From NCBI GenBank assembly GCA_949152475.1, contig OX424562.1:23312209-23376208 (forward strand): a stretch of 64,000 nucleotides of DNA. The letters run 5' to 3'. The notes beneath the pieces were generated by a model that saw only the letters and a program-made list of their open reading frames with translations, had not been told where the DNA came from and searched no databases. This DNA is from Terebella lapidaria (lineage: Eukaryota; Annelida; Polychaeta; Terebellida; Terebellidae). This document shows, in pieces, positions 14,316 through 45,332 of this stretch (position 1 is its first letter; each line of letters starts with the position of its first letter). A program made the position numbers and the translations under genes.

Positions 14316-16350
14316 TTACGTCATGTGAACAGATGCACTGTAAACATACTCAGCATTTTCACAATGCTCTGCCGCGCTGTTTGTTTCATTGAAGAGCTTC
14401 CCTCTGCAAAAGTTACAGAAGCATGCCAGATTCCAGAGATTTGCTTCAATGTCCTGTGTACCCTGAATCATATGCACTCTTCTTGTGCCGTTTACAGGCT
14501 TTGCAGTGTATTCTGTGGAACGGTCAATGGTTTTCACGTTAACAAACATGCATTTTGAATGACAGCAATCATCTGAAGGGTTTTTTGGTCTTGTCAAGTT
14601 GTCCTTGCAATATCTGTGCATGTCAGTTGCATTCTGTATTTTTTCACCGTTTTTTACTGCCCGTCTTGCTGCTTGCTTGACAACAGCTGTGACACCATCA
14701 CTGGGTCCTTTCCCATGCCTGGACCCGAAGAATACTCGAACAACTGTGGCACCTAATCTGCCCGACGACGCACTCACATCTTGAAATGCTAATGACGACT
14801 TGTACTGACTTGCTGCTCCGTCATCAAACTCGATAACAGTCTTGAAGTTCACTCCTGAACTTCTCAGCTCATCTATGGCCATTCCTTCAAATGTCGCCAC
14901 AGCATGTACATCATGCTTTAGGTCGTCGCTCAACATCACAATTTCCTGGCGAACTGTGCTGCCACACTCACAGGGATAGAAGCAGACCATCGGGTGGATA
15001 GTCACCTGTGAGTGACCGTCCCAGTGGAGTTGTTGCGGTTCGTCCTGGTGTAGACAGAGATAGTTTTGTCCGAAGTCCATCACCATAATGAGTGTGTCCT
15101 CAGGCTGAGATTCTCTGATGGATTTGTACATGTACTGCTGCCATCTGGCGACAAAGATGTGTCGAGCAAAGTCTTGCAATATCTCGTTCAGGAATGATGC
15201 AACTCTGGCCAAATTTCCCCTCATTGAGGCAAGTATCATCTTCTTCTTTCCTGCGCTGTTCAGAATAAGTTCCCACCTGTACCAAGACAGTACATCCACT
15301 CCATGGACAGCCAAGTGCTGCACCCTTTCTGTCAAGTTTGTTGCTCCACAATCATCGCATTCACGGGAAATGCACCTCTGTCGGTGAAAGATGGTATTTG
15401 TCACGCACATTGTTGCTGAAACAGTGGCCAGGTGGTCTGAGAAAACTTCTGTGAGCTCCTTGCATTCCCTACAGTCCTTCGAGAATCTCTTTGTCTGCTT
15501 CTGGATGGAATCAGCTATCTGTGATACATTCGCACACTGATCACAGACACAGTTTCTGAGGTTCTGTTTCTGTTGAAGTTTTACATCTCTTGGTCTCAGC
15601 TTTTGGAATTTACTGAGGCTGACATTAGGTGCATCATTTGTTTCCTTGTATTCTAAGTATGCCTTGGTGATAGACATCTGCAACACTTTAACAGATCCAG
15701 CTTTTGTGGCTCTTTTGGCATCAGGAAGTTCCACGGACACATCTGGTGTACGGTAGAAGTCTTGTATGAAGCCAACTGCTTGCTTTGGTAAGGCGTCAGT
15801 TCTGGTATCTAAGATCTCCCTGTTACTAATATTGATCTTCTGAAGGTATGACCATCGTAGGCCAAGTTGACGAGAATTTTCTCGAAGAATCAAGGATTTG
15901 TTTATGGCTGCCTTCACAATGAGCTGTCTCTGTTTATGGATCTTCTTACTTTTGCAGCTTTTGAGCGTTTCAAGCTTTTCTCTGATGGGGTTGACGACAG
16001 TTGACACAGCTGTTCTCATTTTCTTTCTTCTGAGCTGAAGATCGTCCAGTGCCTTCCTCTTTTTGGGCGTTACATTTTCAATCAGGTGCGACATTGTTTG
16101 TGCGAACTTAGAGGGTGATTTTGGCAACGCTCGTCTTGCACGACATGCAGCAGCTCGAATAGAAGTACTCTTGTATATATGAACAGTTAATGGGCGATTA
16201 TTTTTCTTTCGTGCTCTCGACTCCTGTTGTTTTTTACGCCAATACTCTCTTTGCTTGTCTCGTTGTTGCTTTGTCAATCTTTTATTTGTTTTTCCTGTAG
16301 TCTGAGTCTCATTCTTTTCCTTTTTCTTCTTGAGTCTGTACTTGCGAGAC
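14316..16350 (-). CDS. Transposase-like protein, main exon
   Basis: An open exon of about 677 codons follows acceptor GAGTATTATTTTAG (ends at 16351) and stops at 14316. It begins with a long Lys/Arg-rich coiled segment (SRKYRLKKKKEKNE, KQREYWRKKQQESRARKK), probably nuclear and nucleic-acid binding. The middle has paired cysteines: CVCDQC, CREC, and CISRECDDCGA, a zinc-binding pattern. The end has MVMDFGQNYLCLHQDE, TIHPMVCFYPCEC, SDDLKHDVHAVATFE, FDDGAASQYKSS and FFGSRHGKGPSDG. The spaced acidic positions (MDFGQNY, FDDGAASQYK, GKGPSDG) suggest an RNase H-fold DDE/D-type enzyme. Related uncharacterised proteins are, as I recall, abundant in cnidarians and molluscs. No terminal inverted repeats were found. 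It may be a domesticated or unclassified transposase. Confidence 0.6.
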
Positions 16351-16429
16351 CTAAAATAATACTCAAAACTAGAGCACCTGGCTGCAAACGACCATGTAGG
16401 TGTATTCCCCCGACACCCTGTCATCCCGG

Positions 16430-19077: not shown

Positions 19078-19971
19078 GGCTCTAACTTCTTTGGCCGCCT
19101 CCTAATGGACCTAAAACGTGCCAACTCTCCTACTAACAATCCTAAACCCTCTCGCTCTTCACCTCCATCTTCAAATAACACCCCTCCCTCTGTGTCCACT
19201 TCTAACCGCTTCCAACTCCTTGATACCCTCTCTAACCCTCCTTGCCTATCATCATCTGATGATTGGCCACCTCTCTCTCGCTCTTCTCCTGATAACCGCC
19301 TTAGTGCCACGCCCAAACGGCGTCCGCGCTCTCCTTCTTCTCCTGAACTCTCACCCTCCACTCTACCTAAAGGCAAATGCACTCGCTTTGTCTCTCCTAA
19401 AAACTCTCCTAACACCACTTTCCATGTCTCTCCTTCCACTATCAGAGGACCCAAAACTCTTTGGGCCCTTCCTAAACTAACCTCCTCCACTGTCATCCTC
19501 GGCTCTTCTAACCTTTCTCGCATCACCAAATCCCCTGTCAGTGATATCCAAGTTGTGTCTTATCCTGGAGCTTTGTTCAACCATCTAAGAATGATGTTCA
19601 CGGCCTGTAAAAAATCATTTGATGCCCCCCAAAACTTAATCTTAAGTGTAGGCCTGAACAATCGAAGCTCCAAACCAAGTGTTACTTCAATTCCAGAGCT
19701 GAGGAATATGCTCAGCAGTGCTTTCCGAATCTTCCCCCACTCCAAAATTCTCATTCCAAAAATTAACTACTCAGACAATCTTCCGTCTGTAGAGAAACGC
19801 AACTTGGATATGATTAACAGGGCTTTGGATGACATGAGTTCACGTTTCAGCAATCTCACAGTTGTTAAGCAGTTGGATCCAATCAAGTTTTCTACACAGA
19901 CAGATAACATTCATTGGACTGAACAAACGGCCAATGAAATGTTGAAATTCTGGCTCAGTCATTTAAACTAA
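19078..19971 (+). pseudogene. PLE copy A ORF1 remnant: linker and SGNH-like domain
   Basis: Only the last ~295 residues of ORF1 remain: the Pro/Ser-rich linker and the SGNH-like domain (STVILGSSNLSRI, LILSVGLNNRSS, DNIHWTEQTANEML). The frame is open but has no promoter and no NADAR domain. It differs from copy B by a few substitutions, for example KANALALS-side codon Cys versus Arg at 19379. Confidence 0.8.
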
Positions 19972-22250
19972 ATCATTCTGAGAGTCCACCGAACTCCAGT
20001 ACGACTAATAATGTTGTAAACCTTTCCAAATTTACACTTTCGGACACACAAATCGCTCTTCTAAATCGTGGTTTGACATTTGTTCCCACACCCAAAATAA
20101 CATTGGATCCAATTGAACAAGCTGTGCAAGATTTTGGTAGAAAACTCAAACTTCATAATTATTTTTCTCACCGTCCAAATTCATTTACAAATAGATCAAA
20201 ATTCACTCCAAAATCTACCTGGACTCCACCGAGTTCCATGATTGACAAGCCTGTTTTAGATTGCATTTCGGCAATATCAAAAGAAATTGAAAATTTGAAA
20301 ATTCAACCCGAAACCAAAAACCTAACAAAAATTGAATATAAAACTATAAAGGATTTACAAAATAACTTAGACTTGGTAATTAAAAAAGCAGATAAAGGTA
20401 GTGCAGTCGTAATTATGGATAAGCAAAAATATATTAATGAAGGCTTTCGTCAACTATACAATCCAGCTCATTACAGATAAATTGACACTCCTCTTTACCT
20501 AGAAAATTCAGAAAAAATAACAAAAATTTTAAAAGGATTACGCAATTCTGGATGCCTTTCTGAAAAAGTATTCCAATTTCTTCTACCACCAGAACGCCCT
20601 CGTCAAAGAAGATTTTATATGCTACCTAAAATTCATAAACCCAAAGACTCCTGGCCAATTCCAAATGTAATGCCTCCAGGGCGCCCAATTGTATCTGACT
20701 GCAGCAGTGAATCTGAAAAAGTAGCTATGTATATTGATTCATATATAAAAGATCAAGCAAATAAGCATCCGTCATATATAAAAAACACGTATGACTTTTT
20801 AGATAAAGTTAGAGGGCTTGAACTAGATCCAAATTCTTTACTAATCACTTTAGATGTTGAAAGTATGTATACTAATATAAATCATGAAGAAGGTATCCAA
20901 GCACTTAAAAATGCATTCCCGACTCTGAAAAACAATGAACTATTCAAAGGTATAATAGAATTATTGGAAATTTCACTTAAATGTAATGACTTTGAATTTG
21001 ACGGTAAGACATTCCTACAAGTTTCAGGTACAGCCATGGGTCAGAAATATGCACCTCATTATGCAGATATTTATATGGCTGAATTTGAAAAGCAAGCATT
21101 ACAAAAGTGTCCATTCCAACCAGATTGCTATTATAGGTATTTAGATGACATTTTCCTCATTTGGCCACACGGCATTTCCAAATTTAATCAGTTTCTCGAA
21201 ATATTCAATTCTCATAGGACATCAATCAAGTTCAAAGCTGAAATTAGTACTGATTCAGTTAATTTTTTGGATACTACTTTGTTCAGGAGCAAAGAAAACA
21301 CATTAGAAGCAAAAGTTTTCTTCAAGCCAACGGATACTCATCAGTTGTTGCATAAGCTCTCTTTTCATCCAAAACACACTTATAAAGGACTAATCAAGTC
21401 CCAAGTTTTTCGATTTTTCCAAATTTGCTCATATCCAGATGATGTTGAATCAGCTTGTCAAATATTATTCAAGGCACTTTCGAAACGTAACTATTCAAAA
21501 CGTTGGCTTCGCAAAATCAAGAATGAAACATTGAGAATTTTGAACAGTGAGGAAAGATTAGGTTCTGATTTTCAATTGCCCACTTCCAGCTCGTCTGGCT
21601 CAAAACCTTGTAATTCTAGACAATGTCAGACATGTCATTTAGTTCCAAATTGTCAAAATTTCTCGGGATCAGTTTTTGAACAAACCTACTCAATCAACTC
21701 AGCTTTGGATTGCAACTCAGAAAATATAATTTATCTATACACTTGTAAGCTTTGCGAAAAACAATATGTAGGTGAAACCGGTAAATCACTCAAATTCAGA
21801 AACAATCGTCACCGTGCTGCAATAACTAGCTGCAATGAGGAAAATGCATTATACAGTCATCTATCTAAATTTCACAGCAAAACTGAATTTTCCATCGAAT
21901 GTTTTTCTCTTTTACCAATTGAACAGGTTTCCGATCTTGGTGATGAACTTTTAAACAAACAATGGCGACTTGAAAGGGAATATTGTTGGATTGATACTCT
22001 AGGCACTTTCGAACCTCATGGCCTCAACGTTCAAAAATTTACAAAGTATGACCCTTTGAACAAAAGTAAAAATAAATTCGACCTGGTGTATATAGTACCC
22101 TTCTCAAAAACAGGTGCTCTTTCGGCCCAAATTGTTAAAAAGCATATGAAACAACTCAACAAAAATACTGATGGTGATATTAAAATAGCAACAGCTTACA
22201 AGAAGCATCAAAACCTTAAAGAACTTTTAGTCAGAAGCAGACTTAAATAA
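19947..22250 (+). pseudogene. PLE copy A ORF2 (RT plus GIY-YIG) with nonsense codon
   Basis: Homologous along its length to the intact ORF2 of copy C, but TAA at 20478-20480 replaces a Glu codon (AHYR*IDTPLY), and the position of the copy-C start ATG reads ATT. After the stop the frame runs open from LPKIHKPKDSW to the end. RT and GIY-YIG motifs are as in copy C. It shares the nonsense codon with copy B. Confidence 0.9.
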
Positions 22251-22847
22251 TCCAACAAAATTTGTTCAATGTCGCTCATTGAATTTTTATTGCTGTTTTA
22301 TGTTATGTGTTACTCTTACAATTATCTTGTGCCAGTGCATTTTTTATTCTCTCCAAAACATACTTAGCCCGTGCCTAGCATATTGTAAGGGTCAAAACAC
22401 ATTTTATAAATATTTTGTTTTTCAGTTCATTTTAGTACATTTTGTTTTTATTTCATCTCATTTTATTTGAAGTCTCCTGAAGCAATGCAAGTCAATTTGA
22501 CACATCTTCAGTTTCAAAAAACAATTTCATGCCTAATAAAATCTCTGCCTAAGAATCTATTGCTGGAAAGCACCGCAGTAATACCATTTTGAAAATTATT
22601 TATTTTAGCATACTTCAGAAAATATAACTTCAAACGTTAATTATGTTTGTCAATCAACTAACTGCTAATTGTTTTACTCAGTGTCAGATACGCATATCAA
22701 AAACAATTGAATTCATTAACTGTTAATTATCTATACTCAACATATGTCACTTTTCTTGGCAAACTGTTCTGAAAACTGCTAATTGATTTGCTCAACCATT
22801 GGTAAACTGTTAATTGATTTACTCAAACAAAATTGACATTGGCACAA

Positions 22848-22867
22848 GCCAATATTTCCTATAAATA
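22848..22867 (+). promoter_or_regulatory. PLE copy B promoter: CCAAT and TATA boxes
   Basis: A CCAAT element near 22848 and TATAAATA at 22860-22867 lie in the control region. A start site about 25-30 nt downstream would fall near 22890, immediately before the hammerhead-like fold. The same arrangement is present 4907 bp later (TATA at 27767-27774) in copy C. Recognised by pattern only. Confidence 0.5.
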
Positions 22868-22897
22868 CTGCAACCACAGTAGGTTCTTTAGACTTCA

Positions 22898-22935
22898 GCA
22901 CTTGACAAAGGATTCAACTCCGAAACCGGTCGTGC
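22898..22935 (+). ncRNA. Hammerhead-ribozyme-like motif, PLE copy B
   Basis: Layout matches a minimal type I hammerhead with tiny stem III, known from Penelope-like elements. Stem I is GCAC (22898-22901) with GTGC (22932-22935). The first core segment is TTGACAA. A short stem II GGA/TCC caps a 6-nt loop. Then comes GAAA, a one-to-two-pair stem III (A-U, C-G, loop CG) and GTC at the predicted cleavage position 22931. Departures: the consensus CTGANGA is TTGACAA, so the core C3-G8 pair becomes U3-A8, a compensatory change; and one extra A sits before stem II. Self-cleavage is untested. Confidence 0.55.
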
Positions 22936-22952
22936 AACAGGCAGAGTACATT

Positions 22953-23037
22953 GTGAGTAACCTCTTTTATATTGTTTTGTATTATTTTGTTGTGTTTTAG
23001 ATACTGGTCAGATTATTGACCATATCTTTGCATTCAG
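22953..23037 (+). other. Possible 5'UTR intron, PLE copy B
   Basis: Donor TTG|GTGAGT-like sequence (GTGAGT at 22953-22958) is followed by T-rich sequence and acceptors TGTGTTTTAG (ends 23000) and CTTTGCATTCAG (ends 23037). An intron of 48 or 85 nt would result, inside the leader before ORF1. Drosophila Penelope is known to carry a short intron in its leader, so this is plausible but unproven. Confidence 0.35.
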
Positions 23038-23168
23038 GTTTCTCCAAACGTTTTGTTCTCATTTTATACAATTGTTTTTATTTTTCATAATTTTATCTTT
23101 TGGTTTTATCATCCAAATCAATCACGTTCTGGTTTTAATACTTTCAAAATTAATTGCTGAAACGTATC

Positions 23169-24878
23169 ATGGCTCTTTCTAAACCTCCTCACTTCCGTTC
23201 TTTTTACACTCTTCTTCAATGCTTTCACCATCTGTCACTAATGCTCCAGCAGTCTCAAGGTCAAGTCACCAGGGCTTTCAGTAAAAAACAACAACACCTG
23301 GATGACTTCATTAAACCTGCTTGTTCTGGTCCTCTAATCAAACAAAAAATCTCCAAAATTAATCAAAATTGGGTACAAAACGTGACCAAACATTTGGTGG
23401 AACACTATGAGAGCTCAATTCAAAACCTTTTGGCCCACATTTCCTCTTTAGGTTTATCAGATTCGGACATTGCAAATTCGGTAGCTCTCGTCATTCAGCA
23501 GGCTAAATCTCATTTCGGCAAAAAACTTCAGGCTTCCACCATCCAGAAATTCAAAACCTCTACTCTTCCAAATTCCCCTATTCCAAATTCTAACTCTCAA
23601 TCAAAACCTCAGACTTGCGAGGTAAAAGGTCACAAACACCCACTTAGTAATTTCTTCCCATGTAATATATCCTATCGTGGTATGAGATTCCCTAGCCTTG
23701 AGCACATCTATCAGTATCACAAAGCCCGGTACCATGACTGTCAACACCTAGCCAATCGGATCCTCAGGGCTCCCCATGCAGGAGTGGCCAAACGTTTGGC
23801 TAGTGAAATTCCTAGCCTGTCCCCATTCTGGCATAAAAGTAAAAATGGAATCATGCGTCAACTTCTTCAAGTTAAGTTTAATTCTTGCAAATTGTTCCGT
23901 GACACTCTGATGGGTCTTCCTGAAGGGTGTCACATTGTCCATCCAGTTCCTGACAGCCACTGGGGTGTTAACCGTCATGGTCAAGGCTCTAACTTCTTTG
24001 GCCGCCTCCTAATGGACCTAAAACGTGCCAACTCTCCTACTAACAATCCTAAACCCTCTCGCTCTTCACCTCCATCTTCAAATAACACCCCTCCCTCTGT
24101 GTCCACTTCTAACCGCTTCCAACTCCTTGATACCCTCTCTAACCCTCCTTGCCAATCATCATCTGATGATTGGCCACCTCTCTCTCGCTCTTCTCCTGAT
24201 AACCGCCTTAGTGCCACGCCCAAACGGCGTCCGCGCTCTCCTTCTTCTCCTGAACTCTCACCCTCCACTCTACCTAAAGGCAAACGCACTCGCTTTGTCT
24301 CTCCTAAAAACTCTCCTAACACCACTTTCCATGTCTCTCCTTCCACTATCAGAGGACCCAAAACTCTTTGGGCCCTTCCTAAACTAACCTCCTCCACTGT
24401 CATCCTCGGCTCTTCTAACCTTTCTCGCATCACCAAATCCCCTGTCAGTGATATCCAAGTTGTGTCTTATCCTGGAGCTTTGTTCAACCATCTAAGAATG
24501 ATGTTCACGGCCTGTAAAAAATCATTTGATGCCCCCCAAAACTTAATCTTAAGTGTAGGCCTGAACAATCGAAGCTCCAAACCAAGTGTTACTTCAATTC
24601 CAGAGCTGAGGAATATGCTCAGCAGTGCTTTCCGAATCTTCCCCCACTCCAAAATTCTCATTCCAAAAATTAACTACTCAGACAATCTTCCGTCTGTAGA
24701 GAAACGCAACTTGGATATGATTAACAGGGCTTTGGATGACATGAGTTCACGTTTCAGCAATCTCACAGTTGTTAAGCAGTTGGATCCAATCAAGTTTTCT
24801 ACACAGACAGATAACATTCATTGGACTGAACAAACGGCCAATGAAATGTTGAAATTCTGGCTCAGTCATTTAAACTAA
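23169..24878 (+). CDS. PLE copy B ORF1: NADAR plus SGNH-hydrolase-like protein
   Basis: 569 aa from ATG 23169, which has A at -3 and G at +4. Residues 1-150 are helical and Gln/Lys-rich. Residues about 154-284 form a NADAR domain: HPLSNFFPCN, RFPSLEHIYQYHKARYHD, FWHKSKNGIMRQLLQVKF, then DSHWGVNRHGQGSNFFGRLL, keeping the conserved SNF, E-H..Q..KA, W, K-F, WG and G.G.N.G positions. A Pro/Ser/Arg-rich linker (about 285-405) follows. Residues about 408-569 form an SGNH-like fold: LGSSNLSR (block I, with D of GDS replaced by S), SVGLNN (block III) and DNIHW (block V, D-x2-H). NADAR proteins are ADP-ribosyl glycohydrolases; SGNH-like domains occur in ORF1 of some LINEs. Its role in retrotransposition is unknown. 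Confidence 0.85.
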   Translation: MALSKPPHFRSFYTLLQCFHHLSLMLQQSQGQVTRAFSKKQQHLDDFIKPACSGPLIKQKISKINQNWVQNVTKHLVEHYESSIQNLLAHISSLGLSDSDIANSVALVIQQAKSHFGKKLQASTIQKFKTSTLPNSPIPNSNSQSKPQTCEVKGHKHPLSNFFPCNISYRGMRFPSLEHIYQYHKARYHDCQHLANRILRAPHAGVAKRLASEIPSLSPFWHKSKNGIMRQLLQVKFNSCKLFRDTLMGLPEGCHIVHPVPDSHWGVNRHGQGSNFFGRLLMDLKRANSPTNNPKPSRSSPPSSNNTPPSVSTSNRFQLLDTLSNPPCQSSSDDWPPLSRSSPDNRLSATPKRRPRSPSSPELSPSTLPKGKRTRFVSPKNSPNTTFHVSPSTIRGPKTLWALPKLTSSTVILGSSNLSRITKSPVSDIQVVSYPGALFNHLRMMFTACKKSFDAPQNLILSVGLNNRSSKPSVTSIPELRNMLSSAFRIFPHSKILIPKINYSDNLPSVEKRNLDMINRALDDMSSRFSNLTVVKQLDPIKFSTQTDNIHWTEQTANEMLKFWLSHLN

Positions 24879-27157
24879 ATCATTCTGAGAGTCCACCGAA
24901 CTCCAGTACGACTAATAATGTTGTAAACCTTTCCAAATTTACACTTTCGGACACACAAATCGCTCTTCTAAATCGTGGTTTGACATTTGTTCCCACACCC
25001 AAAATAACATTGGATCCAATTGAACAAGCTGTGCAAGATTTTGATAGAAAACTCAAACTTCATAATTATTTTTCTCACCGTCCAAATTCATTTACAAATA
25101 GATCAAAATTCACTCCAAAATCTACCTGGACTCCACCGAGTTCCATGATTGACAAGCCTGTTTTAGATTGCATTTCGGCAATATCAAAAGAAATTGAAAA
25201 TTTGAAAATTCAACCCGAAACCAAAAACCTAACAAAAATTGAATATAAAACTATAAAGGATTTACAAAATAACTTAGACTTGGTAATTAAAAAAGCAGAT
25301 AAAGGTAGTGCAGTCGTAATTATGGATAAGCAAAAATATATTAATGAAGGCTTTCGTCAACTATACAATCCAGCTCATTACAGATAAATTGACACTCCTC
25401 TTTACCTAGAAAATTCAGAAAAAATAACAAAAATTTTAAAAGGATTACGCAATTCTGGATGCCTTTGTGAAAAAGTATTCCAATTTCTTCTACCACCAGA
25501 ACGCCCTCGTCAAAGAAGATTTTATATGCTACCTAAAATTCATAAACCCAAAGACTCCTGGCCAATTCCAAATGTAATGCCTCCAGGGCGCCCAATTGTA
25601 TCTGACTGCAGCAGTGAATCTGAAAAAGTAGCTATGTATATTGATTCATATATAAAAGATCAAGCAAATAAGCATCCGTCATATATAAAAAACACGTATG
25701 ACTTTTTAGATAAAGTTAGAGGGCTTGAACTAGATCCAAATTCTTTACTAATCACTTTAGATGTTGAAAGTATGTATACTAATATAAATCATGAAGAAGG
25801 TATCCAAGCACTTAAAAATGCATTCCCGACTCTGAAAAACAATGAACTATTCAAAGGTATAATAGAATTATTGGAAATTTCACTTAAATGTAATGACTTT
25901 GAATTTGACGGTAAGACATTCCTACAAGTTTCAGGTACAGCCATGGGTCAGAAATATGCACCTCATTATGCAGATATTTATATGGCTGAATTTGAAAAGC
26001 AAGCATTACAAAAGTGTCCATTCCAACCAGATTGCTATTATAGGTATTTAGATGACATTTTCCTCATTTGGCCACACGGCATTTCCAAATTTAATCAGTT
26101 TCTCGAAATATTCAATTCTCATAGGACATCAATCAAGTTCAAAGCTGAAATTAGTACTGATTCAGTTAATTTTCTGGATACTACTTTGTTCAGGAGCAAA
26201 GAAAACACATTAGAAGCAAAAGTTTTCTTCAAGCCAACGGATACTCATCAGTTGTTGCATAAGCTCTCTTTTCATCCAAAACACACTTATAAAGGACTAA
26301 TCAAGTCCCAAGTTTTTCGATTTTTCCAAATTTGCTCATATCCAGATGATGTTGAATCAGCTTGTCAAATATTATTCAAGGCACTTTCGAAACGTAACTA
26401 TTCAAAACGTTGGCTTCGCAAAATCAAGAATGAAACATTGAGAATTTTGAACAGTGAGGAAAGATTAGGTTCTGATTTTCAATTGCCCACTTCCAGCTCG
26501 TCTGGCTCAAAACCTTGTAATTCTAGACAATGTCAGACATGTCATTTAGTTCCAAATTGTCAAAATTTCTCGGGATCAGTTTTTGAACAAACCTACTCAA
26601 TCAACTCAGCTTTGGATTGCAACTCAGAAAATATAATTTATCTATACACTTGTAAGCTTTGCGAAAAACAATATGTAGGTGAAACCGGTAAATCACTCAA
26701 ATTCAGAAACAATCGTCACCGTGCTGCAATAACTAGCTGCAATGAGGAAAATGCATTATACAGTCATCTATCTAAATTTCACAGCAAAACTGAATTTTCC
26801 ATCGAATGTTTTTCTCTTTTACCAATTGAACAGGTTTCCGATCTTGGTGATGAACTTTTAAACAAACAATGGCGACTTGAAAGGGAATATTGTTGGATTG
26901 ATACTCTAGGCACTTTCGAACCTCATGGCCTCAACGTTCAAAAATTTACAAAGTATGACCCTTTGAACAAAAGTAAAAATAAATTCGACCTGGTGTATAT
27001 AGTACCCTTCTCAAAAACAGGTGCTCTTTCGGCCCAAATTGTTAAAAAGCATATGAAACAACTCAACAAAAATACTGATGGTGATATTAAAATAGCAACA
27101 GCTTACAAGAAGCATCAAAACCTTAAAGAACTTTTAGTCAGAAGCAGACTTAAATAA
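24854..27157 (+). pseudogene. PLE copy B ORF2 (RT plus GIY-YIG) with nonsense codon
   Basis: The same frame as copy C ORF2, but with TAA at 25385-25387 in the N-terminal region and no ATG at the copy-C start (ATTCTGG instead of ATGCTGG). Downstream the frame is open with LPKIHK, GRPIVS, LDVESMYTN, GTAMGQKYAP, YLDD and the GIY-YIG module. Copy B also has a private Ser to Cys change (TGT near 25467). Confidence 0.9.
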
Positions 27158-27766
27158 TCCAACAAAATTTGTTCAATGTCGCTCATTGAATTTTTATTGC
27201 TGTTTTATGTTATGTGTTACTCTTACAATTATCTTGTGCCAGTGCATTTTTTATTCTCTCCAAAACATACTTAGCCCGTGCCTAGCATATTGTAAGGGTC
27301 AAAACACATTTTATAAATATTTTGTTTTTCAGTTCATTTTAGTACATTTTGTTTTTATTTCATCTCATTTTATTTGAAGTCTCCTGAAGCAATGCAAGTC
27401 AATTTGACACATCTTCAGTTTCAAAAAACAATTTCATGCCTAATAAAATCTCTGCCTAAGAATCTATTGCTGGAAAGCACCGCAGTAATACCATTTTGAA
27501 AATTATTTATTTTAGCATACTTCAGAAAATATAACTTCAAACGTTAATTATGTTTGTCAATCAACTAACTGCTAATTGTTTTACTCAGTGTCAGATACGC
27601 ATATCAAAAACAATTGAATTCATTAACTGTTAATTATCTATACTCAACATATGTCACTTTTCTTGGCAAACTGTTCTGAAAACTGCTAATTGATTTGCTC
27701 AACCATTGGTAAACTGTTAATTGATTTACTCAAACAAAATTGACATTGGCACAAGCCAATATTTCC

Positions 27767-27842
27767 TATAAATACTGCAACCACAGTAGGTTCTTTAGAC
27801 TTCAGCACTTGACAAAGGATTCAACTCCGAAACCGGTCGTGC
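27767..27842 (+). promoter_or_regulatory. PLE copy C TATA box and hammerhead-like motif
   Basis: Exact repeat, at +4907 bp, of the copy B arrangement: TATAAATA at 27767-27774 and the hammerhead-like fold at 27805-27842, with stem I GCAC/GTGC, GAAA, and GTC ending at 27838. Cleavage at both copies would release a 4907-nt RNA from a tandem transcript. Confidence 0.55.
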
Positions 27843-28075
27843 AACAGGCAGAGTACATTGTGAGTAACCTCTTTTATATTGTTTTGTATTATTTTGTTGT
27901 GTTTTAGATACTGGTCAGATTATTGACCATATCTTTGCATTCAGGTTTCTCCAAACGTTTTGTTCTCATTTTATACAATTGTTTTTATTTTTCATAATTT
28001 TATCTTTTGGTTTTATCATCCAAATCAATCACGTTCTGGTTTTAATACTTTCAAAATTAATTGCTGAAACGTATC

Positions 28076-29785
28076 ATGGCTCTTTCTAAACCTCCTCACT
28101 TCCGTTCTTTTTACACTCTTCTTCAATGCTTTCACCATCTGTCACTAATGCTCCAGCAGTCTCAAGGTCAAGTCACCAGGGCTTTCAGTAAAAAACAACA
28201 ACACCTGGATGACTTCATTAAACCTGCTTGTTCTGGTCCTCTAATCAAACAAAAAATCTCCAAAATTAATCAAAATTGGGTACAAAACGTGACCAAACAT
28301 TTGGTGGAACACTATGAGAGCTCAATTCAAAACCTTTTGGCCCACATTTCCTCTTTAGGTTTATCAGATTCGGACATTGCAAATTCGGTAGCTCTCGTCA
28401 TTCAGCAGGCTAAATCTCATTTCGGCAAAAAACTTCAGGCTTCCACCATCCAGAAATTCAAAACCTCTACTCTTCCAAATTCCCCTATTCCAAATTCTAA
28501 CTCTCAATCAAAACCTCAGACTTGCGAGGTAAAAGGTCACAAACACCCACTTAGTAATTTCTTCCCATGTAATATATCCTATCGTGGTATGAGATTCCCT
28601 AGCCTTGAGCACATCTATCAGTATCACAAAGCCCGGTACCATGACTGTCAACACCTAGCCAATCGGATCCTCAGGGCTCCCCATGCAGGAGTGGCCAAAC
28701 GTTTGGCTAGTGAAATTCCTAGCCTGTCCCCATTCTGGCATAAAAGTAAAAATGGAATCATGCGTCAACTTCTTCAAGTTAAGTTTAATTCTTGCAAATT
28801 GTTCCGTGACACTCTGATGGGTCTTCCTGAAGGGTGTCACATTGTCCATCCAGTTCCTGACAGCCACTGGGGTGTTAACCGTCATGGTCAAGGCTCTAAC
28901 TTCTTTGGCCGCCTCCTAATGGACCTAAAACGTGCCAACTCTCCTACTAACAATCCTAAACCCTCTCGCTCTTCACCTCCATCTTCAAATAACACCCCTC
29001 CCTCTGTGTCCACTTCTAACCGCTTCCAACTCCTTGATACCCTCTCTAACCCTCCTTGCCTATCATCATCTGATGATTGGCCACCTCTCTCTCGCTCTTC
29101 TCCTGATAACCGCCTTAGTGCCACGCCCAAACGGCGTCCGCGCTCTCCTTCTTCTCCTGAACTCTCACCCTCCACTCTACCTAAAGGCAAACGCACTCGC
29201 TTTGTCTCTCCTAAAAACTCTCCTAACACCACTTTCCATGTCTCTCCTTCCACTATCAGAGGACCCAAAACTCTTTGGGCCCTTCCTAAACTAACCTCCT
29301 CCACTGTCATCCTCGGCTCTTCTAACCTTTCTCGCATCACCAAATCCCCTGTCAGTGATATCCAAGTTGTGTCTTATCCTGGAGCTTTGTTCAACCATCT
29401 AAGAATGATGTTCACGGCCTGTAAAAAATCATTTGATGCCCCCCAAAACTTAATCTTAAGTGTAGGCCTGAACAATCGAAGCTCCAAACCAAGTGTTACT
29501 TCAATTCCAGAGCTGAGGAATATGCTCAGCAGTGCTTTCCGAATCTTCCCCCACTCCAAAATTCTCATTCCAAAAATTAACTACTCAGACAATCTTCCGT
29601 CTGTAGAGAAACGCAACTTGGATATGATTAACAGGGCTTTAGATGACATGAGTTCACGTTTCAGCAATCTCACAGTTGTTAAGCAGTTGGATCCAATCAG
29701 GTTCTCTACACAGCCAGATAACATTCATTGGACTGAACAAACGGCCAATGAAATGTTGAAATGCTGGCTCAGTCATTTAAACTAA
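28076..29785 (+). CDS. PLE copy C ORF1: NADAR plus SGNH-hydrolase-like protein
   Basis: 569 aa from ATG 28076, intact. Domain layout is as in copy B: NADAR about residues 154-284, linker, SGNH-like about 408-569. The last 35 residues carry the copy-D variants R, P and C (PIRFSTQPDN, MLKCWLSHLN) instead of K, T and F. Its stop (TAA, 29783-29785) lies inside the start of ORF2. Confidence 0.87.
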   Translation: MALSKPPHFRSFYTLLQCFHHLSLMLQQSQGQVTRAFSKKQQHLDDFIKPACSGPLIKQKISKINQNWVQNVTKHLVEHYESSIQNLLAHISSLGLSDSDIANSVALVIQQAKSHFGKKLQASTIQKFKTSTLPNSPIPNSNSQSKPQTCEVKGHKHPLSNFFPCNISYRGMRFPSLEHIYQYHKARYHDCQHLANRILRAPHAGVAKRLASEIPSLSPFWHKSKNGIMRQLLQVKFNSCKLFRDTLMGLPEGCHIVHPVPDSHWGVNRHGQGSNFFGRLLMDLKRANSPTNNPKPSRSSPPSSNNTPPSVSTSNRFQLLDTLSNPPCLSSSDDWPPLSRSSPDNRLSATPKRRPRSPSSPELSPSTLPKGKRTRFVSPKNSPNTTFHVSPSTIRGPKTLWALPKLTSSTVILGSSNLSRITKSPVSDIQVVSYPGALFNHLRMMFTACKKSFDAPQNLILSVGLNNRSSKPSVTSIPELRNMLSSAFRIFPHSKILIPKINYSDNLPSVEKRNLDMINRALDDMSSRFSNLTVVKQLDPIRFSTQPDNIHWTEQTANEMLKCWLSHLN

Positions 29786-32064
29786 ATCATTCTGAGAGTC
29801 CACCGAACTCCAGTACGACTAATAATGTTGTAAACCTTTCCAAATTTACACTTTCGGACACACAAATCGCTCTTCTAAATCGTGGTTTGACTTTTGTTCC
29901 CACACCCAAAATAACATTGGATCCAATTGAACAGGCTGTGCAAGATTTTGGTAGAAAACTCAAACTTAAAAATTATTTTTCTCACCGTCCAAATTCATTT
30001 ACAAATAGATCCAAATTCACTCCAAAATCTACCTGGACTCCACCCAGTTCCATGATTGACAAGCCTGTTTTAGATTGCATTTCGGCAATATCTAAAGAAA
30101 TTGAAAATTTGAAAATTCAACCAGAAACCAAAAACCTAACAAAAATGGAATATAAAACTATAAAGGATTTACAAAATAACGTAGACTTGGTAATCAAAAA
30201 AGCAGATAAAGGTAGTGCAGTCGTAATTATGGATAGGCAAAATTATATTAATGAAGGCCTTCGTCAATTATACAATCCAGCTCATTACAGAGAAATTGAC
30301 ACTCCTCTTTACCCAGAAAATTCAGAAAAAATAACAAAAATTTTAAAAGGATTACGCAGTTCTGGATGCCTTTCTGAAAAAGTATTCCAATTTCTTTTAC
30401 CACCAGAACGCCCTCGTCAAAGAAGATTTTATATGCTACCTAAAATTCATAAACCCAAAGACTCCTGGCCAATTCCAAATGTAATGCCTCCAGGGCGCCC
30501 AATTGTATCTGACTGCAGCAGTGAATCTGAAAAAGTAGCTATGTATATTGATTCATATATAAAAGATCAAGCAAATAAACATCCGTCATATATAAAAAAC
30601 ACGTATGACTTTTTAGATAAAGTTAGAGGGCTTGAACTAGATCCAAATTCGTTACTAATCACTTTAGATGTTGAAAGTATGTATACTAATATAAATCATG
30701 AAGAAGGTATCCAAGCAATTAAAAATGCATTCCCGACTCTGAAAAACAATGAACTATTCAAAGGTATAATAGAATTATTGGAAATTTCACTTAAATGTAA
30801 TGACTTTGAATTTGACGGTAAGACATTCCTACAAGTTTCAGGTACAGCCATGGGTCAGAAATATGCACCTCATTATGCAGATATTTATATGGCTGAATTT
30901 GAAAAGCAAGCATTACAAAAGTGTCCATTCCAACCAGATTGCTATTATAGGTATTTAGATGACATTTTCCTCATTTGGCCACACGGCATTTCCAAATTTA
31001 ATCAGTTTCTCGAAATATTCAATTCTCATAGGGCATCAATCAAGTTCAAAGCTGAAATTAGTACTGATTCAGTTAATTTTTTGGATACTACTTTGTTCAG
31101 GAGCAAAGAAAACACATTAGAAGCAAAAGTTTTCTTCAAGCCAACGGATACTCATCAGTTGTTGCATAAGCTCTCTTTTCATCCAAAACACACTTATAAA
31201 GGACTAATCAAGTCCCAAGTTTTTCGATTTTTCCAAATTTGCTCATATCCAGATGATGTTGAATTAGCTTGCCAAACATTATTCAAGGCACTTTCGAAAC
31301 GTAACTATTCAAAACGTTGGCTTCGCAAAATCAAGAATGAAACATTGAGAATTCTAAACAGTGAGGAAAGGCTAGGTGCTGATTTTCAGTTGCCCACTTC
31401 CAGCTCATCTGGCTCAAAACCTTGTAATTCTAGACAATGTCAGACATGTCATTTAGTTCCAAATTGTCAAAATTTCTCGGGATCAGTTTTTGAACAAACC
31501 TACTCAATCAACTCAGCTTTGGATTGCAACTCAGAAAATATAATTTATCTATACACTTGTAAGCTTTGCGAAAAACAATATGTAGGTGAAACCGGTAAAT
31601 CACTCAAATTCAGAAACAATCGTCACCGTGCTGCAATAACTAGCTGCAATGAGGAAAATGCATTATACAGTCATCTATCTAAATTTCACAGCAAAACTGA
31701 ATTTTCCATCGAATGTTTTTCTCTTTTACCAATTGAACAGGTTTCCGATCTTGGTGATGAACTTTTAAACAAACAATGGCGACTTGAAAGGGAATATTGT
31801 TGGATTGATACTCTAGGCACTTTCGAACCTCATGGCCTCAACGTTCAAAAATTTACAAAGTATGACCCTTTGAACAAAAGTAAAAATAAATTCGACCTGG
31901 TGTATATAGTACCCTTCTCAAAAACAGGTGCTCTTTCGGCCCAAATTGTTAAAAAGCATATGAAACAACTCAACAAAAATACTGATGGTGATATTAAAAT
32001 AGCAACAGCTTACAAGAAGCATCAAAACCTTAAAGAACTTTTAGTCAGAAGCAGACTTAAATAA
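29761..32064 (+). CDS. PLE copy C ORF2: Penelope-type reverse transcriptase with GIY-YIG endonuclease
   Basis: 767 aa, overlapping ORF1 by 25 nt in another frame. N-terminus has KKADKGSAVVIMDRQNY (about 146-162), usual in Penelope proteins. RT core: LPKIHK (226-231), GRPIVS (245-250), motif A LDVESMYTN with Asp303, motif B SGTAMGQKYAP (360-370), motif C YLDD (398-401), then NFLDTTLF. A Cys-rich linker (CNSRQCQTCH, about 555-564) precedes the GIY-YIG nuclease: IYLYTCKLCEKQYVGETGK (about 595-613), then R and H in RNNRHR, and an end EREYCWIDTLGTFEPHGLN. It copies element RNA primed from a nicked target. All catalytic aspartates are present. Translation probably needs reinitiation or frameshift at the overlap. 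Confidence 0.93.
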   Translation: MLAQSFKLNHSESPPNSSTTNNVVNLSKFTLSDTQIALLNRGLTFVPTPKITLDPIEQAVQDFGRKLKLKNYFSHRPNSFTNRSKFTPKSTWTPPSSMIDKPVLDCISAISKEIENLKIQPETKNLTKMEYKTIKDLQNNVDLVIKKADKGSAVVIMDRQNYINEGLRQLYNPAHYREIDTPLYPENSEKITKILKGLRSSGCLSEKVFQFLLPPERPRQRRFYMLPKIHKPKDSWPIPNVMPPGRPIVSDCSSESEKVAMYIDSYIKDQANKHPSYIKNTYDFLDKVRGLELDPNSLLITLDVESMYTNINHEEGIQAIKNAFPTLKNNELFKGIIELLEISLKCNDFEFDGKTFLQVSGTAMGQKYAPHYADIYMAEFEKQALQKCPFQPDCYYRYLDDIFLIWPHGISKFNQFLEIFNSHRASIKFKAEISTDSVNFLDTTLFRSKENTLEAKVFFKPTDTHQLLHKLSFHPKHTYKGLIKSQVFRFFQICSYPDDVELACQTLFKALSKRNYSKRWLRKIKNETLRILNSEERLGADFQLPTSSSSGSKPCNSRQCQTCHLVPNCQNFSGSVFEQTYSINSALDCNSENIIYLYTCKLCEKQYVGETGKSLKFRNNRHRAAITSCNEENALYSHLSKFHSKTEFSIECFSLLPIEQVSDLGDELLNKQWRLEREYCWIDTLGTFEPHGLNVQKFTKYDPLNKSKNKFDLVYIVPFSKTGALSAQIVKKHMKQLNKNTDGDIKIATAYKKHQNLKELLVRSRLK

Positions 32065-32177
32065 TCCAACAAAATTTGTTCAATGTCGCTCATTGAATTT
32101 TTATTGCTGTTTTATGTTATGTGTTACTCTTACAATTATCTTGTGCCAGTGCATTTTTTATTCTCTCCAAAACATAC

Positions 32178-32320
32178 CTACATAATACATACACACATAC
32201 ATACACACACACATACATACATACATACGTACATACACATACGCATGTAGGCAACTTTCTCATACATATATACCCACCGATAAATATATATACATACACA
32301 CACAATAGTTATATCTATAG
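32178..32320. repeat. (CATA)n/(CACA)n microsatellite
   Basis: A degenerate CATA/CACA tract directly follows the 3' end of PLE copy C and directly precedes the antisense LINE. On the minus strand it is a (TATG)n tail, so it is best read as the 3' tail of that LINE. Short ORFs in it are artefacts. Confidence 0.85.
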
Positions 32321-33561
32321 ATTCATTGCCGATCATAAAGCGTACACTGCCTTCTCTGGTTTATCTGAAACAGCGTTCTAGCACTATCCTTAGCCACTGC
32401 TGGTGAACTCAATATAAAGCATAGTTTCTGATGATCAGATAGCTCCATGAAGCTAGGCTCACAGGCCACACATTTGTGGTACAAATGCTGTCGGAGGTCA
32501 CTATACAGTGGGCATGCAGTGACGACATGCAATTCGTCCTCTACTGACTCTAGACATCTGAAGCATCTTCTATCCTCCACTGGTAAGCCCTCATATCTGC
32601 CTGTTTCGATTCTCAAGGGTGCTGATCCGCATCTAAACATCGCAAGTGCACGTCGGTAGCTCCAAGGCATCGTCATTGATACATATGTCTCAAGTGCATA
32701 GGAGAATTTTAATTGCCGGTATAACCGGAGCTTGTTTCCACCCTGGCCTCTTACTGCTGTCATCCGTGCCATGTCGTCCTTCCAAACTTCCTCTGATCGA
32801 CGAGCCATGATACGACTCAGGTCTTGGCAAAGTGTTGCTGTGTGTAGTGGTCCTTCAGGGTCACACCAGCTTTCCCGTTCAATGTTGCAAAAGTGTTGTT
32901 TTGTCCGAAACACCCAGTTCTTGACAGGTCGGTGCCTTTCAGCTAGTGTCTCAGCCCACGAGAACACAAGTTTGGTAATTCGGTTCATACTCAGATTCCT
33001 CATGCGACACCATAGTCGCCCGATCGCTTTCCATTGATGTTCGTAAGGCATGGACCAGGTAAGTTCTCCGTGTACTGCGGTGTTTGGTGTATTCTTGCCA
33101 ATCCCCAGGTAGAAGCGTGATGCACGATTATGAACTGCGTTAATACACGAAAATTCACGGTGACCCCAAATCGCTGCGCCGTACGTGATAATCGGTACCA
33201 CTAAGCAGTGGTATAGTTTAGTATACACTGCGAATGGCATCCCAACATTGACTTTGGATTTTGCTATCAGTAATCCAAGAGCGCGGTGGGCTGAATTAGC
33301 TACTTCCTTAGCTGTAATGTTATAATCCAAATGTTCTGTTATCCAAAGGCCTAGGTACTTATATTTGTCAACTATATCCACATCAGAGTCGCCACAAGTA
33401 AATTTCCAGTTTGTTAGTGGTTGACAAGGGGTTCGAAAATGTACAACTTTACTCTTTGTCCCATTTATTCTAAAGTTCCAGTCCATACACCATCTATGCA
33501 GTATATCCAGTGTGTCCTGTAAATATTGTTCCGACTCCGACAATAAAATCACATCGTCAGC
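32321..33561 (-). mobile_element. LINE 3' fragment, antisense, between PLE copies C and D
   Basis: An open minus-strand frame encodes the end of a non-LTR reverse transcriptase: DDVILLSESEQYLQDTLDIL (after the YADD box), INGTKSKVVHF, KYKYLGLWITEHL, then a thumb-like region and a C-x2-C...H...C end (CFRCLESVEDELHVVTACPL). It is truncated at 33561, exactly where PLE copy D begins. No RNase H is present, so it is a different family from the LINE at 46750. The clade was not determined. Confidence 0.85.
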
Positions 33562-34764
33562 TTCCCTAGCCTTGAGCACATCTATCAGTATCACACAGCC
33601 CGGTACCATGACTGTCAACACCTAGCCAATCGGATCCTTAGGGCTCCCCATGCAGGAGTGGCCAAACGTTTGGCTAGTGAAATTCCTAGCCTGTCCCCGT
33701 TCTGGCATAAAAGTAAAAATGGAATTATGCGTCAACTTCTTCAAGTTAAGTTTAATTCTTGCAAATTGTTCCGTGACACTCTGATGGGTCTACCGGAAGG
33801 GTGTCACATTGTCCATCCAGTTCCTGACAGCCACTGGGGTGTTAATCATCATGGTCAAGGCTCTAACTTCTTTGGCCGCCTCCTAATGGACCTAAAACGT
33901 GCCAACTCTCCTACTAACAATCCTAAACCCTCTCGCTCTTCACCTCCATCTTCAAATAACACCCTCCCTAAAACCCTTCCCTCTGTGTCCACTTCTAACC
34001 GCTTCCAACTCCTTGACACCCTCTCTAATCCTCCTTGCCTCTCATCATCTGATGATTGGCCACCTCTCTCTCGTTCTTCTCCTGATAACCGCCTTAGTGC
34101 CACGCCCAGACGGCGTCCGCGCTCTCCTTCTTCTCCTGAACTCTCACCTTCCTCTCTACCTAAAGGCAAACGCTCTCGCTTTGCCTCTCCTAAAAACTCT
34201 CCTAACACCACTTTCCATGTCTCCCCTTCCACTATCAGAGGGCCCAAAACTCTTTGGACCCTTCCTAGACTAACCTCCTCCACTGTCGTCCTCGGCTCTT
34301 CTAACCTCTCTCGCATCACCAAATCCCCCGTTAGTGATATCCAAGTTGTGTCTTATCCTGGAGCTTTGTTCAACCATCTGAGAATGATGTTCACGGCCTG
34401 TAAAAAAACATTTGATGCCCCCAAAAACTTAATCTTAAGTGTTGGCCTGAACAATCGAAGCTCCAAACCAAGTGTTACTTCAATTCCAGAGCTGAGGAAT
34501 ATGCTCAGCAGTGCTTTCCGAATCTTCCCCCACTCCAAAATTCTTATTCCAAAAATTAACTACTCAGACAATCTTCCGTCTGTAGAGAAACGCAACTTGG
34601 ATATGATTAACAGGGCTTTAGATGACATGAGTTCACGTTTCAGCAATCTCACAGTTGTTAAACAATTGGATCCAATCAGGTTCTCTACACAGCCAGATAA
34701 CATTCATTGGACTGAACAAACGGCCAATGAAATGTTGAAATGCTGGCTCAGTCATTTAAACTAA
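33562..34764 (+). pseudogene. PLE copy D ORF1, N-terminally truncated
   Basis: Open from within the NADAR domain to the normal end. It keeps RQLLQVKFNSCKLFRDTL, SHWGV and the full SGNH-like domain but lacks residues 1 to about 170. A 12-bp insertion in the linker (NNTLPKTLPSVS) and several substitutions (SSLPKGKRSRFASP) mark it as a distinct lineage from A and B. Confidence 0.85.
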
Positions 34765-37044
34765 ATCATTCTGAGAGTCCACCGAACTCCAGTACGACTA
34801 ATAATGTTGTAAACCTTTCCAAATTTACACTTTCGGACACACAAATCGCTCTTCTAAATCGTGGTTTGACTTTTGTTCCCACACCCAAAATAACATTGGA
34901 TCCAATTGAACAGGCTGTGCAAGATTTTGGTAGAAAACTCAAACTTAAAAATTATTTTTCTCACCGTCCAAATTCATTTACAAATAGATCCAAATTCACT
35001 CCAAAATCTACCTGGACTCCACCCAGTTCCATGATTGACAAGCCTGTTTTAGATTGCATTTCGGCAATATCTAAAGAAATTGAAAATTTGAAAATTCAAC
35101 CAGAAACCAAAAACCTAACGAAAATGGAATATAAAACTATAAAGGATTTACAAAATAACGTAGACTTGGTAATCAAAAAAGCAGATAAAGGTAGTGCAGT
35201 CGTAATTATGGCTAGGCAAAATTATATTAATGAAGGCCTTCGTCAATTATACAATCCAGCTCATTACAGAGAAATTGACACTCCTCTTTACCCAGAAAAT
35301 TCAGAAAAAATAACAAAAATTTTAAAAGGATTACGCAGTTCTGGATGCCTTTCTGAAAAAGTATTCCAATTTCTTTTACCACCAGAACGCCCTCGTCAAA
35401 GAAGATTTTATATGCTACCTAAAATTCATAAACCCAAAGACTCCTGGCCAATTCCAAATGTAATGCCTCCAGGGCGCCCAATTGTATCTGACTGCAGCAG
35501 TGAATCTGAAAAAGTAGCTATGTATATTGATTCATATATAAAAGATCAAGCAAATAAACATCCGTCATATATAAAAAAACACGTATGACTTTTTAAATAA
35601 AGTTAGAGGGCTTGAACTAGATCCAAATTCGTTACTAATCACTTTAGATGTTGAAAGTATGTATACTAATATAAATCATGAAGAAGGTATCCAAGCAATT
35701 AAAAATGCATTCCCGACTCTGAAAAACAATGAACTATTCAAAGGTATAATAGAATTATTGGAAATTTCACTTAAATGTAATGACTTTGAATTTGACGGTA
35801 AGACATTCCTACAAGTTTCAGGTACAGCCATGGGTCAGAAATATGCACCTCATTATGCAGATATTTATATGGCTGAATTTGAAAAGCAAGCATTACAAAA
35901 GTGTCCATTCCAACCAGATTGCTATTATAGGTATTTAGATGACATTTTCCTCATTTGGCCACACGGCATTTCCAAATTTAATCAGTTTCTCGAAATATTC
36001 AATTCTCATAGGGCATCAATCAAGTTCAAAGCTGAAATTAGTACTGATTCAGTTAATTTTTTGGATACTACTTTGTTCAGGAGCAAAGAAAACACATTAG
36101 AAGCAAAAGTTTTCTTCAAGCCAACGGATACTCATCAGTTGTTGCATAAGCTCTCTTTTCATCCAAAACACACTTATAAAGGACTAATCAAGTCCCAAGT
36201 TTTTCGATTTTTCCAAATTTGCTCATATCCAGATGATGTTGAATCAGCTTGTCAAATATTATTCAAGGCACTTTCGAAACGTAACTATTCAAAACGTTGG
36301 CTTCGCAAAATCAAGGATGAAACATTGAGAATTTTGAACAGTGAGGAAAGATTAGGTTCTGATTTTCAATTGCCCACTTCCAGCTCGTCTGGCTCAAAAC
36401 CTTGTAATTCTAGACAATGTCAGACATGTCATTTAGTTCCAAATTGTCAAAATTTCTCGGGATCAGTTTTTGAACAAACCTACTCAATCAACTCAGCTTT
36501 GGATTGCAACTCAGAAAATATAATTTATCTATACACTTGTAAGCTTTGCGAAAAACAATATGTAGGTGAAACCGGTAAATCACTCAAAGTCAGAAACAAT
36601 CGTCACCGTGCTACAATAACTAGCTGCAATGAGGAAAATGCATTATACAGTCATCTATCTAAATTTCACAGCAAAACTGAATTTTCCATCGAATGTTTTT
36701 CTCTTTTACCAATTGAACAGGTTTCCGATCTTGGTGATGAACTTTTAAACAAACAATGGCGACTTGAAAGGGAATATTGTTGGATTGATACTCTAGGCAC
36801 TTTCGAACCTCATGGCCTCAACGTTCAAAAATTTACAAAGTATGACCCTTTGAACAAAAGTAAAAATAAATTCGACCTGGTGTATATAGTACCCTTCTCA
36901 AAAACAGGTGCTCTTTCGGCCCAAATTGTTAAAAAGCATATGAAACAACTCAACAAAAATACTGATGGTGATATTAAAATAGCAACAGCTTACAAGAAGC
37001 ATCAAAACCTTAAAGAACTTTTAGTCAGAAGCAGACTTAAATAA
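34740..37044 (+). pseudogene. PLE copy D ORF2, frameshifted
   Basis: Starts at the same ATG as copy C and is open to HPSYIKKHV, where one extra A in a seven-A run near 35573-35579 shifts the frame and stops it at 35588. The RT frame resumes at about 35600 and stays open to 37044 with YLDD and GIY-YIG intact. It also has Asp to Ala (VVIMARQNY) and Phe to Val near the nuclease (SLKVRNN). Confidence 0.92.
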
Positions 37045-37157
37045 TCCAACAAAATTTGTTCAATGTCGCTCATTGAATTTTTATTGCTGTTTTATGTTAT
37101 GTGTTACTCTTACAATTATCTTGTGCCAGTGCATTTTTTATTCTCTCCAAAACATAC

Positions 37158-37158
37158 A

Positions 37159-37192
<34 letters not shown>

Positions 37193-45190: not shown

Positions 45191-45332
45191 CCGATTCTTT
45201 CTAATTCGCGCTCAAATATATTGTCACGTGACATGCGACTCGATCGCACAGTGTGACCAGCGACCAGATCGCATGCGAGTGGGTTGCGACTCGGTCGCTG
45301 CGACTGACTCGCATAGTCTGATGGCAGCTTAA

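Follow-up and report, generated by a model that had tools for sequence, protein, structure and literature searches.

The window analysed here, a 64,000-nucleotide stretch of the annelid Terebella lapidaria (contig OX424562.1, positions 23,312,209 to 23,376,208), contains in its region 19078–37157 units of one Penelope-like retroelement. Copies 1–3 form a head-to-tail array whose repeat period, by sequence alignment, is exactly 4907 bp, and a fragment of another element separates copy 4 from them. An initial annotation, made from the letters alone, had described a 4907-bp unit in two full copies with the first open reading frame (ORF1) open in both, and this was borne out. Tandem units and 5′ truncation are Penelope-like traits, and both are present (the period of 4907 bp and the truncated copy 1). 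The units, in window coordinates, are:

19078..22363, plus strand: copy 1, 5′-truncated inside the NADAR part of ORF1; the alignment begins at 19078
22364..27270, plus strand: copy 2, a complete tandem unit of 4907 bp, with its limits taken from the 3′ end of copy 3
27271..32177, plus strand: copy 3, one full unit, terminating at a CATA/CA repeat
33559..37157, plus strand: copy 4, 97.7–98.1% like the other copies; ORF1 5′-truncated with 345 amino acids (aa) left, ORF2 interrupted

The product of ORF1 joins a NADAR domain to an SGNH domain, as the initial annotation had proposed, and the Pfam profile, the fold and the residues all support this architecture:

23169..24878, plus strand: ORF1 of copy 2 (569 aa), which encodes a helical bundle, a NADAR domain, a linker rich in Ser and Pro, and an SGNH domain
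28076..29785, plus strand: ORF1 of copy 3, 569 aa, with the same architecture as copy 2
23193..23564, plus strand: N-terminal five-helix bundle of copy 2, aa 9–132
23631..24026, plus strand: NADAR domain of copy 2, aa 155–286
24354..24875, plus strand: SGNH esterase domain of copy 2, aa 396–569, with S416, G436, N466, D548 and H551

The middle domain has both the YbiA fold and the Pfam NADAR profile, which places it in the NADAR superfamily; the profile search proposed with the annotation thus returned the expected family. The C-terminal domain possesses the full S/G/N/D/H residue set and the SGNH fold, with the catalytic residues named after the ZfL2-1 esterase (PMC3905857, accessible part), whose structure 4c1b is matched by the SGNH profile. 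The N-terminal bundle was modelled (aa 1–136) with a mean predicted local distance difference test score (pLDDT) of 93.7; the model gave no trustworthy match against the PDB, and the alignment shows the bundle in ORF1 relatives without NADAR as well. As part of the overall reading given below, for and against which the balance is about even, ORF1 would be a gag-like accessory protein of three folded parts, including an SGNH esterase of the kind found in ORF1 of long interspersed nuclear elements (LINEs).

Downstream of ORF1, the second frame encodes the reverse transcriptase (RT):

24845..27157, plus strand: ORF2 of copy 2, with an in-frame stop ending at 25387
29761..32064, plus strand: ORF2 of copy 3, 767 aa, open; Penelope RT and GIY-YIG endonuclease

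The RVT_1 match in ORF2 has an E value of 1.3e-11. The GIY-YIG match of copy 3 (E 0.002, 18.8 bits) is under the cut-off of 22.6, and the same domain is over it, at 22.8 bits, in P0002, which is 68% identical. Judged from the RT and GIY-YIG layout together with characteristic motifs, the element is assigned to Penelope. The annotation had placed such an ORF2 in both full copies; the frame is indeed open in copy 3, but it is interrupted by a stop in copy 2, and likewise in copy 1.

The active site of the NADAR domain combines two conserved residues with one changed residue, so that the expected alignment of catalytic residues holds for E178 and K185 but not for the third position, which is His rather than Glu:

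23700..23702, plus strand: codon of E178, equivalent to E48 of YbiA by alignment and to E43 of the P. nicotianae NADAR
23721..23723, plus strand: codon of K185, equivalent to K50 of the P. nicotianae NADAR by spacing
23940..23942, plus strand: codon of H258, where YbiA-type NADARs have their catalytic Glu

In the accessible part of PMC11543638, the catalytic residues of the E. coli C7 NADAR are E88, K95 and D171, with E43, K50 (by spacing) and E125 as their P. nicotianae counterparts. A profile alignment of 145 sequences showed E178 and K185 to be invariant in all 13 Penelope NADARs, with one of 53 copies of the element itself carrying K185Q, and the third catalytic residue to be His in all 13. 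Among 120 other NADAR matches, this residue is Glu in 114, His in 3, Gly in 2 and Asp in 1; P0145, P0146 and P0194 retain Glu there, as does the LINE-like P0142. Val257 was also considered as the counterpart of the catalytic Glu, being allowed by the MAFFT and PDB alignments, and the alignment to YbiA itself keeps a one-residue ambiguity at this place. H258 was preferred because the profile alignment places it there and because it lies 7 residues from a conserved Trp, the same distance as the Glu of the gapless relatives P0145, P0146 and P0147.

According to the accessible text of PMC11125620, NADAR types are told apart by one defining residue: the YbiA family has Glu, BC4488 has Asp, and phage gp30.3 NADARs have His. 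The mark of the YbiA subfamily is a Glu in the last strand (E125); all 13 Penelope NADARs have His instead and, by this residue, lie outside it. The DarT1-linked BC4488 type is marked by Asp at the third position and a DarT neighbour, and here His and a Penelope RT are found instead. The phage gp30.3 type is marked by His, which is present; T4 gp30.3 itself was not alignable by profile, and neither that alignment nor the tree of NADARs includes it. A tested phage NADAR hydrolyses guanosine-ADP-ribose in vitro (PMC11125620, same part), and the Penelope site is therefore unusual yet has an active precedent.

The same combination of proteins recurs in relatives. ORF1 has 22 relatives, of which P0121 is 99% identical to it and P0122–P0133 carry NADAR at 49–31% identity; in P0134–P0141, which are candidate rather than demonstrated members of Penelope elements, the N-terminal and SGNH parts align and NADAR is absent, and P0142 is a distinct LINE-like protein with NADAR. 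For ORF2, 3934 relatives were found at E ≤ 0.001 among 7990 candidates scored, and the 120 listed carry PF00078, PF28514 and/or PF26215. A comparison of P0121–P0133 with the 12 best ORF2 matches gave four pairs on contigs of exactly equal size (P0122/P0007, P0123/P0005, P0126/P0009 and P0128/P0012), against 0.05 expected when jittered. The link between ORF1 and a Penelope RT claimed for this locus holds, and the contig sizes point to the same link in four of the 13 NADAR-bearing ORF1 relatives. Within the same ORF1 family, the SGNH nucleophile Ser is replaced in P0129 (Glu), P0130 (Gly), P0133 (Gly) and P0141 (Gln), and the SGNH His is lost in P0129, P0130 and P0141, with P0133 ending before that position; the NADAR residues are intact in P0129, P0130 and P0133 despite the loss of the Ser.

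A tree of the ORF1 backbone, with 12 rows with NADAR and 8 without (P0133 was dropped as too short), requires two changes in NADAR presence, which may be a gain plus a loss, a pair of gains or a pair of losses. The NADAR tree (145 sequences, 136 columns), in which 50 of 141 forks are open and the bootstrap is not settled, joins the 13 Penelope NADARs with P0143 and P0144 in one group (100/93), whose sister is formed by P0145, P0146 and P0194 (100/94), with P0142 outside. P0143 and P0144 are two of the three other His NADARs, and their position inside the Penelope group suggests that they may be fragments of Penelope NADAR elements. Because the sister group keeps Glu and P0142 lies outside, the tree fits an uptake of NADAR in the Penelope line followed by a change from Glu to His.

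A search of the 761.6-Mb assembly (G000) with ORF1 gave 1376 first-look candidates, of which 77 were scored; all 77 span residues 1–569 at 98–100% identity, and 75 have no stop. Fifty-seven of the scored copies were read (two in the window and 55 fetched, including the 15 lowest-scoring). In 56 of them ORF1 has its full length (569 aa in 52, 568 in 3 and 573 in 1), and the remaining copy has a stop at codon 5; in 45 of the 57, ORF2 is open for 749–773 codons from the heptamer described below. The E values, the 77 scored copies and the relatives on other contigs exclude chance or artefact. The ratio of nonsynonymous to synonymous polymorphism (pN/pS), counted on unique changes among the 53 copies whose ORF1 has no indel, was 0.10 for NADAR, 0.20 for the N-terminus, 0.30 for SGNH and 0.38 for the linker, with 0.22 for ORF2 (39 copies), all of these values being biased downward because the copies were selected by protein similarity. 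A ranking of NADAR as the domain under the strongest constraint was rejected, the difference not being significant.

NADAR also occurs in this genome outside the element. A Pfam NADAR search, with 150 of 973 candidates scored, returned E values down to 9.8e-48 in frames of 136–812 aa, and at least 150 other NADAR frames have Pfam scores much stronger than that of the element. The one frame read, L077 (1–1401), encodes a coiled-coil-like protein with NADAR (sequence VLVEASPYDTYWG) and Glu at the third place. Judged by a published description, L077 and P0142 are presumably LINE proteins; Pfam gave the two NADAR and weak matches, several of them coiled-coil, and no LINE domain. L077 resembles the Tx1 LINE ORF1s in the accessible part of that description (PMC12477816).

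The two frames of the element overlap at a slippery sequence:

24869..24875, plus strand: heptamer T TTA AAC of copy 2, immediately before the ORF1 stop
29776..29782, plus strand: the same heptamer in copy 3

U UUA AAC is a canonical slippery heptamer. ORF1 ends in T TTA AAC TAA with ORF2 in the −1 frame, and the heptamer lies in the frame overlap in all 57 copies read. Before it, the −1 frame is open for just eight codons in 56 copies and for 13 in one, and has no AUG in 49 of the 57; after it, the first AUG is codon 93 in 42 of the 45 open copies. An AUG start of ORF2 was considered and rejected, since an AUG just upstream is present in only 8 copies. For relatives outside this genome, overlap and heptamer were deduced from the protein ends: FKL, the −1 reading of TTTAAACT, occurs within 12 aa of the ORF2 start in 16 of 120 relatives (0.2 expected), and LN is C-terminal in 14 of the 21 ORF1 relatives P0121–P0141, with four more having LN in the last 14 residues. 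P0126/P0009 and P0128/P0012 could each be encoded by a single DNA whose two frames overlap with a −1 shift, a property that is selective and not unique (21 of 2520 pairs pass, and P0128 fits four ORF2s); in P0122/P0007 and P0123/P0005, the predicted ORF2 begins downstream of the overlap. Given the overlap, the mostly missing AUG, the invariant heptamer and the FKL and LN ends in relatives, −1 frameshifting is the simplest reading, and the RT is probably made as an ORF1–ORF2 fusion. However, the RNA structure predicted after the heptamer, pseudoknots aside, is unremarkable (−12.7 kcal/mol, compared with −9.6 ± 4.9 kcal/mol in random windows of the element), and the AUG of those 8 copies, window copy 3 among them, lies five codons upstream of the heptamer and thus makes reinitiation possible there; both observations speak against frameshifting.

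By a loose test, 25 of the 57 copies abut CATA/CA-type repeats at their 3′ ends; 16 continue into a further unit, 13 join other sequence, and 3 have no end motif. A clean CATACATAC is found at the start in 10. These junctions suggest insertion at microsatellites or repeat-templated ends. A hammerhead ribozyme in the pLTR is a further Penelope-like trait; a search of 16500–39000 for it gave no match at E ≤ 1, only a CGAAAC half-core at 22921. The overall reading takes this two-ORF Penelope-like retroelement to have been recently active. The 3′ part of copy 3, together with an RT fragment from a different element on the minus strand (32172–33561), forms a segment (28592–33561) that is repeated behind it, the second instance (33559–38592) being copy 4 plus 37200–38592. 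Elsewhere in the window, a 645-aa open frame at 11059–12996 consists largely of 33-nt repeats, with no Pfam family over the cut-off; a 702-aa open frame at 14316–16424 (minus strand) and two 188-aa open frames at 58087–58653 and 61914–62480, in repeats 3827 bp apart, also matched no Pfam family. Two arrays of 48-nt repeats lie at 40281–40916 and 45187–46110, and 134-nt spaced repeats at 42164–44694 and 55223–56192.

The best single reading of these data, which has about one chance in two in our judgement, is that the NADAR of ORF1 acts as an ADP-ribose eraser on the nucleic acid of the element. ORF1 would be a gag-like protein composed of helical bundle, NADAR and LINE-ORF1-type SGNH esterase, and −1 frameshifting at U UUA AAC, which directly precedes the stop of ORF1, would yield ORF2 mainly as a fusion with it. 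The NADAR would bind ADP-ribose and most likely strip it from (guanine) bases of element RNA or cDNA or of single-stranded DNA where the element inserts. It would do so with an E-K-His site instead of E-K-Glu, similar to the site reported for phage gp30.3 NADARs. Removing ADP-ribose would shield the particle in a host that puts this mark on foreign nucleic acid. The sequence directly shows the domain architecture, the link to the RT, the conserved site, constraint on the protein, the overlapping frames and the heptamer; that the element was recently active, shifts frame, counters a host defence and has a catalytic NADAR with this substrate is inferred. A self-carried eraser of nucleic-acid ADP-ribosylation had already been proposed in the initial annotation; it is plausible, with E178 and K185 invariant and His at the third position, which is Glu elsewhere. 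The accompanying statement that DarT2-type toxins make ADP-ribosyl-guanine was wrong: in the accessible part of PMC11125620, DarT1 does so, the target of DarT2 is thymidine, and none of the four NADAR subtypes tested was active on thymidine-ADP-ribose.

Several points count against the eraser. The catalytic Glu is missing from the Penelope NADARs, and since changing D171 of the C7 NADAR to Ala or Asn abolishes efficient activity (PMC11543638, accessible part), the His may be a sign that activity was lost and not a working substitute. In cells, YbiA and phage NADARs failed to relieve the toxicity of DarT1, although they were active in vitro (PMC11125620, accessible part). The stretch around H258 is modelled somewhat less confidently (pLDDT 89 for aa 251–260 and 78 for aa 261–270). 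Besides the downward bias of the pN/pS values, the constraint on NADAR is not significantly above that on SGNH (Fisher p 0.097) or on the remainder of ORF1 (p 0.13). A host ADP-ribosyltransferase that targets retroelements was not identified here.

In the main rival explanation, doubtful though to be taken seriously, the NADAR is catalytically dead and kept as a binding module for ADP-ribose, NAD-like ends or ADP-ribosylated chromatin, packing the ribonucleoprotein or targeting the element. It is favoured by the change from Glu to His in 13 of 13 after divergence from the Glu-bearing sister P0145, P0146 and P0194 (100/94), and by the loss of the SGNH Ser in P0129, P0130, P0133 and P0141, which indicates that enzymes of this ORF1 family can become scaffolds. 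However, a dead module is at odds with the unvarying E178 and K185 (apart from the single K185Q copy), with a replacement that is one fixed His rather than random, and with the in vitro activity of phage NADARs with His. An improbable alternative is that the NADAR processes the element's own RNA, e.g., NAD-capped or modified ends, during retrotransposition rather than countering host defence. Such a role has been suggested for the Gypsy and Tx1 NADARs (accessible part of PMC12477816), and it agrees with a NADAR that is part of a gag-like ORF1 and, via the likely frameshift, of some RT molecules; however, the ORF1 relatives P0134–P0141, subject to their candidate status, align without NADAR, so that the domain would not be needed for ORF1 function as such. 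A captured passenger without function is very improbable: NADAR does occupy a place between two conserved parts that in relatives holds just a variable linker, which indicates that extra sequence is tolerated there, but it is open in 75 of 77 scored copies, has a pN/pS of 0.10 and keeps the same site in relatives down to 31–35% identity.

ADP-ribosylation of guanine in nucleic acids is a known feature of toxin–antitoxin systems in bacteria and of conflict with phages. Extending the eraser reading, we tentatively suggest, well short of even confidence, that retroelements of three or more classes, among them LINE, Gypsy and Penelope, took up NADAR as a counter-defence against hosts that mark guanine in retroelement RNA or cDNA with ADP-ribose, Penelope having done so separately, with the site rebuilt to E-K-His as in phages and the eraser supplied both as ORF1 and joined to the RT. 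If this is true, nucleic-acid ADP-ribosylation would be a eukaryotic genome-defence pathway. A multi-copy NADAR element in a genome with NADAR-bearing LINE-like repeats is a testable case for hosts using the ADP-ribose mark against retroelements, and the switch from Glu to His offers a ready mutational test. In addition, the likely ORF1–ORF2 frameshift would alter the picture of protein production for this part of Penelope, whose canonical members are described as single-ORF.

Among known systems, the canonical Penelope/Poseidon elements share with this element an ORF with RT and GIY-YIG and tandem or partial-tandem units, but have a single ORF, whereas here a second one overlaps in the −1 frame (PMC11167929, accessible part). 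Esterases in Penelope-like elements have been in print since 2013, and the ZfL2-1-type LINE and Penelope-like esterase ORF1s have SGNH in an accessory protein as here (PMC3905857); a term search of the accessible text of that paper for NADAR gave 0 matches. Rotifer long terminal repeat and Penelope-like elements share GDSL and exonuclease ORFs, and the GDSL ORFs of Athena and Terminons likewise put SGNH in an accessory protein, although Athena elements are endonuclease-deficient, unlike the GIY-YIG-bearing element here (PMC5408684, accessible part). The P. nicotianae NADAR (8bau) shares its fold and the E and K of its site with the Penelope NADAR; the phage gp30.3 NADARs have His as the third residue, as reported. 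Neither the P. nicotianae nor the phage NADARs are joined to a retroelement protein. Fusion of NADAR into a retroelement protein is common to this element, the Gypsy Pol of Ectocarpus and ORF1 of oyster (Crassostrea gigas) Tx1 LINEs, which belong to other retroelement classes and were compared by description only (PMC12477816, accessible part). The initial annotation knew of no NADAR as a Penelope ORF1 module, and no Penelope case was found in the literature searched, although the Gypsy and Tx1 cases were already in print. Thus, NADAR in other retroelement classes and esterases in Penelope-like elements are already known, and what is new here is that ORF1 of a Penelope element carries a NADAR, and one whose active site is altered, which extends the sharing of domains among retroelements to Penelope.
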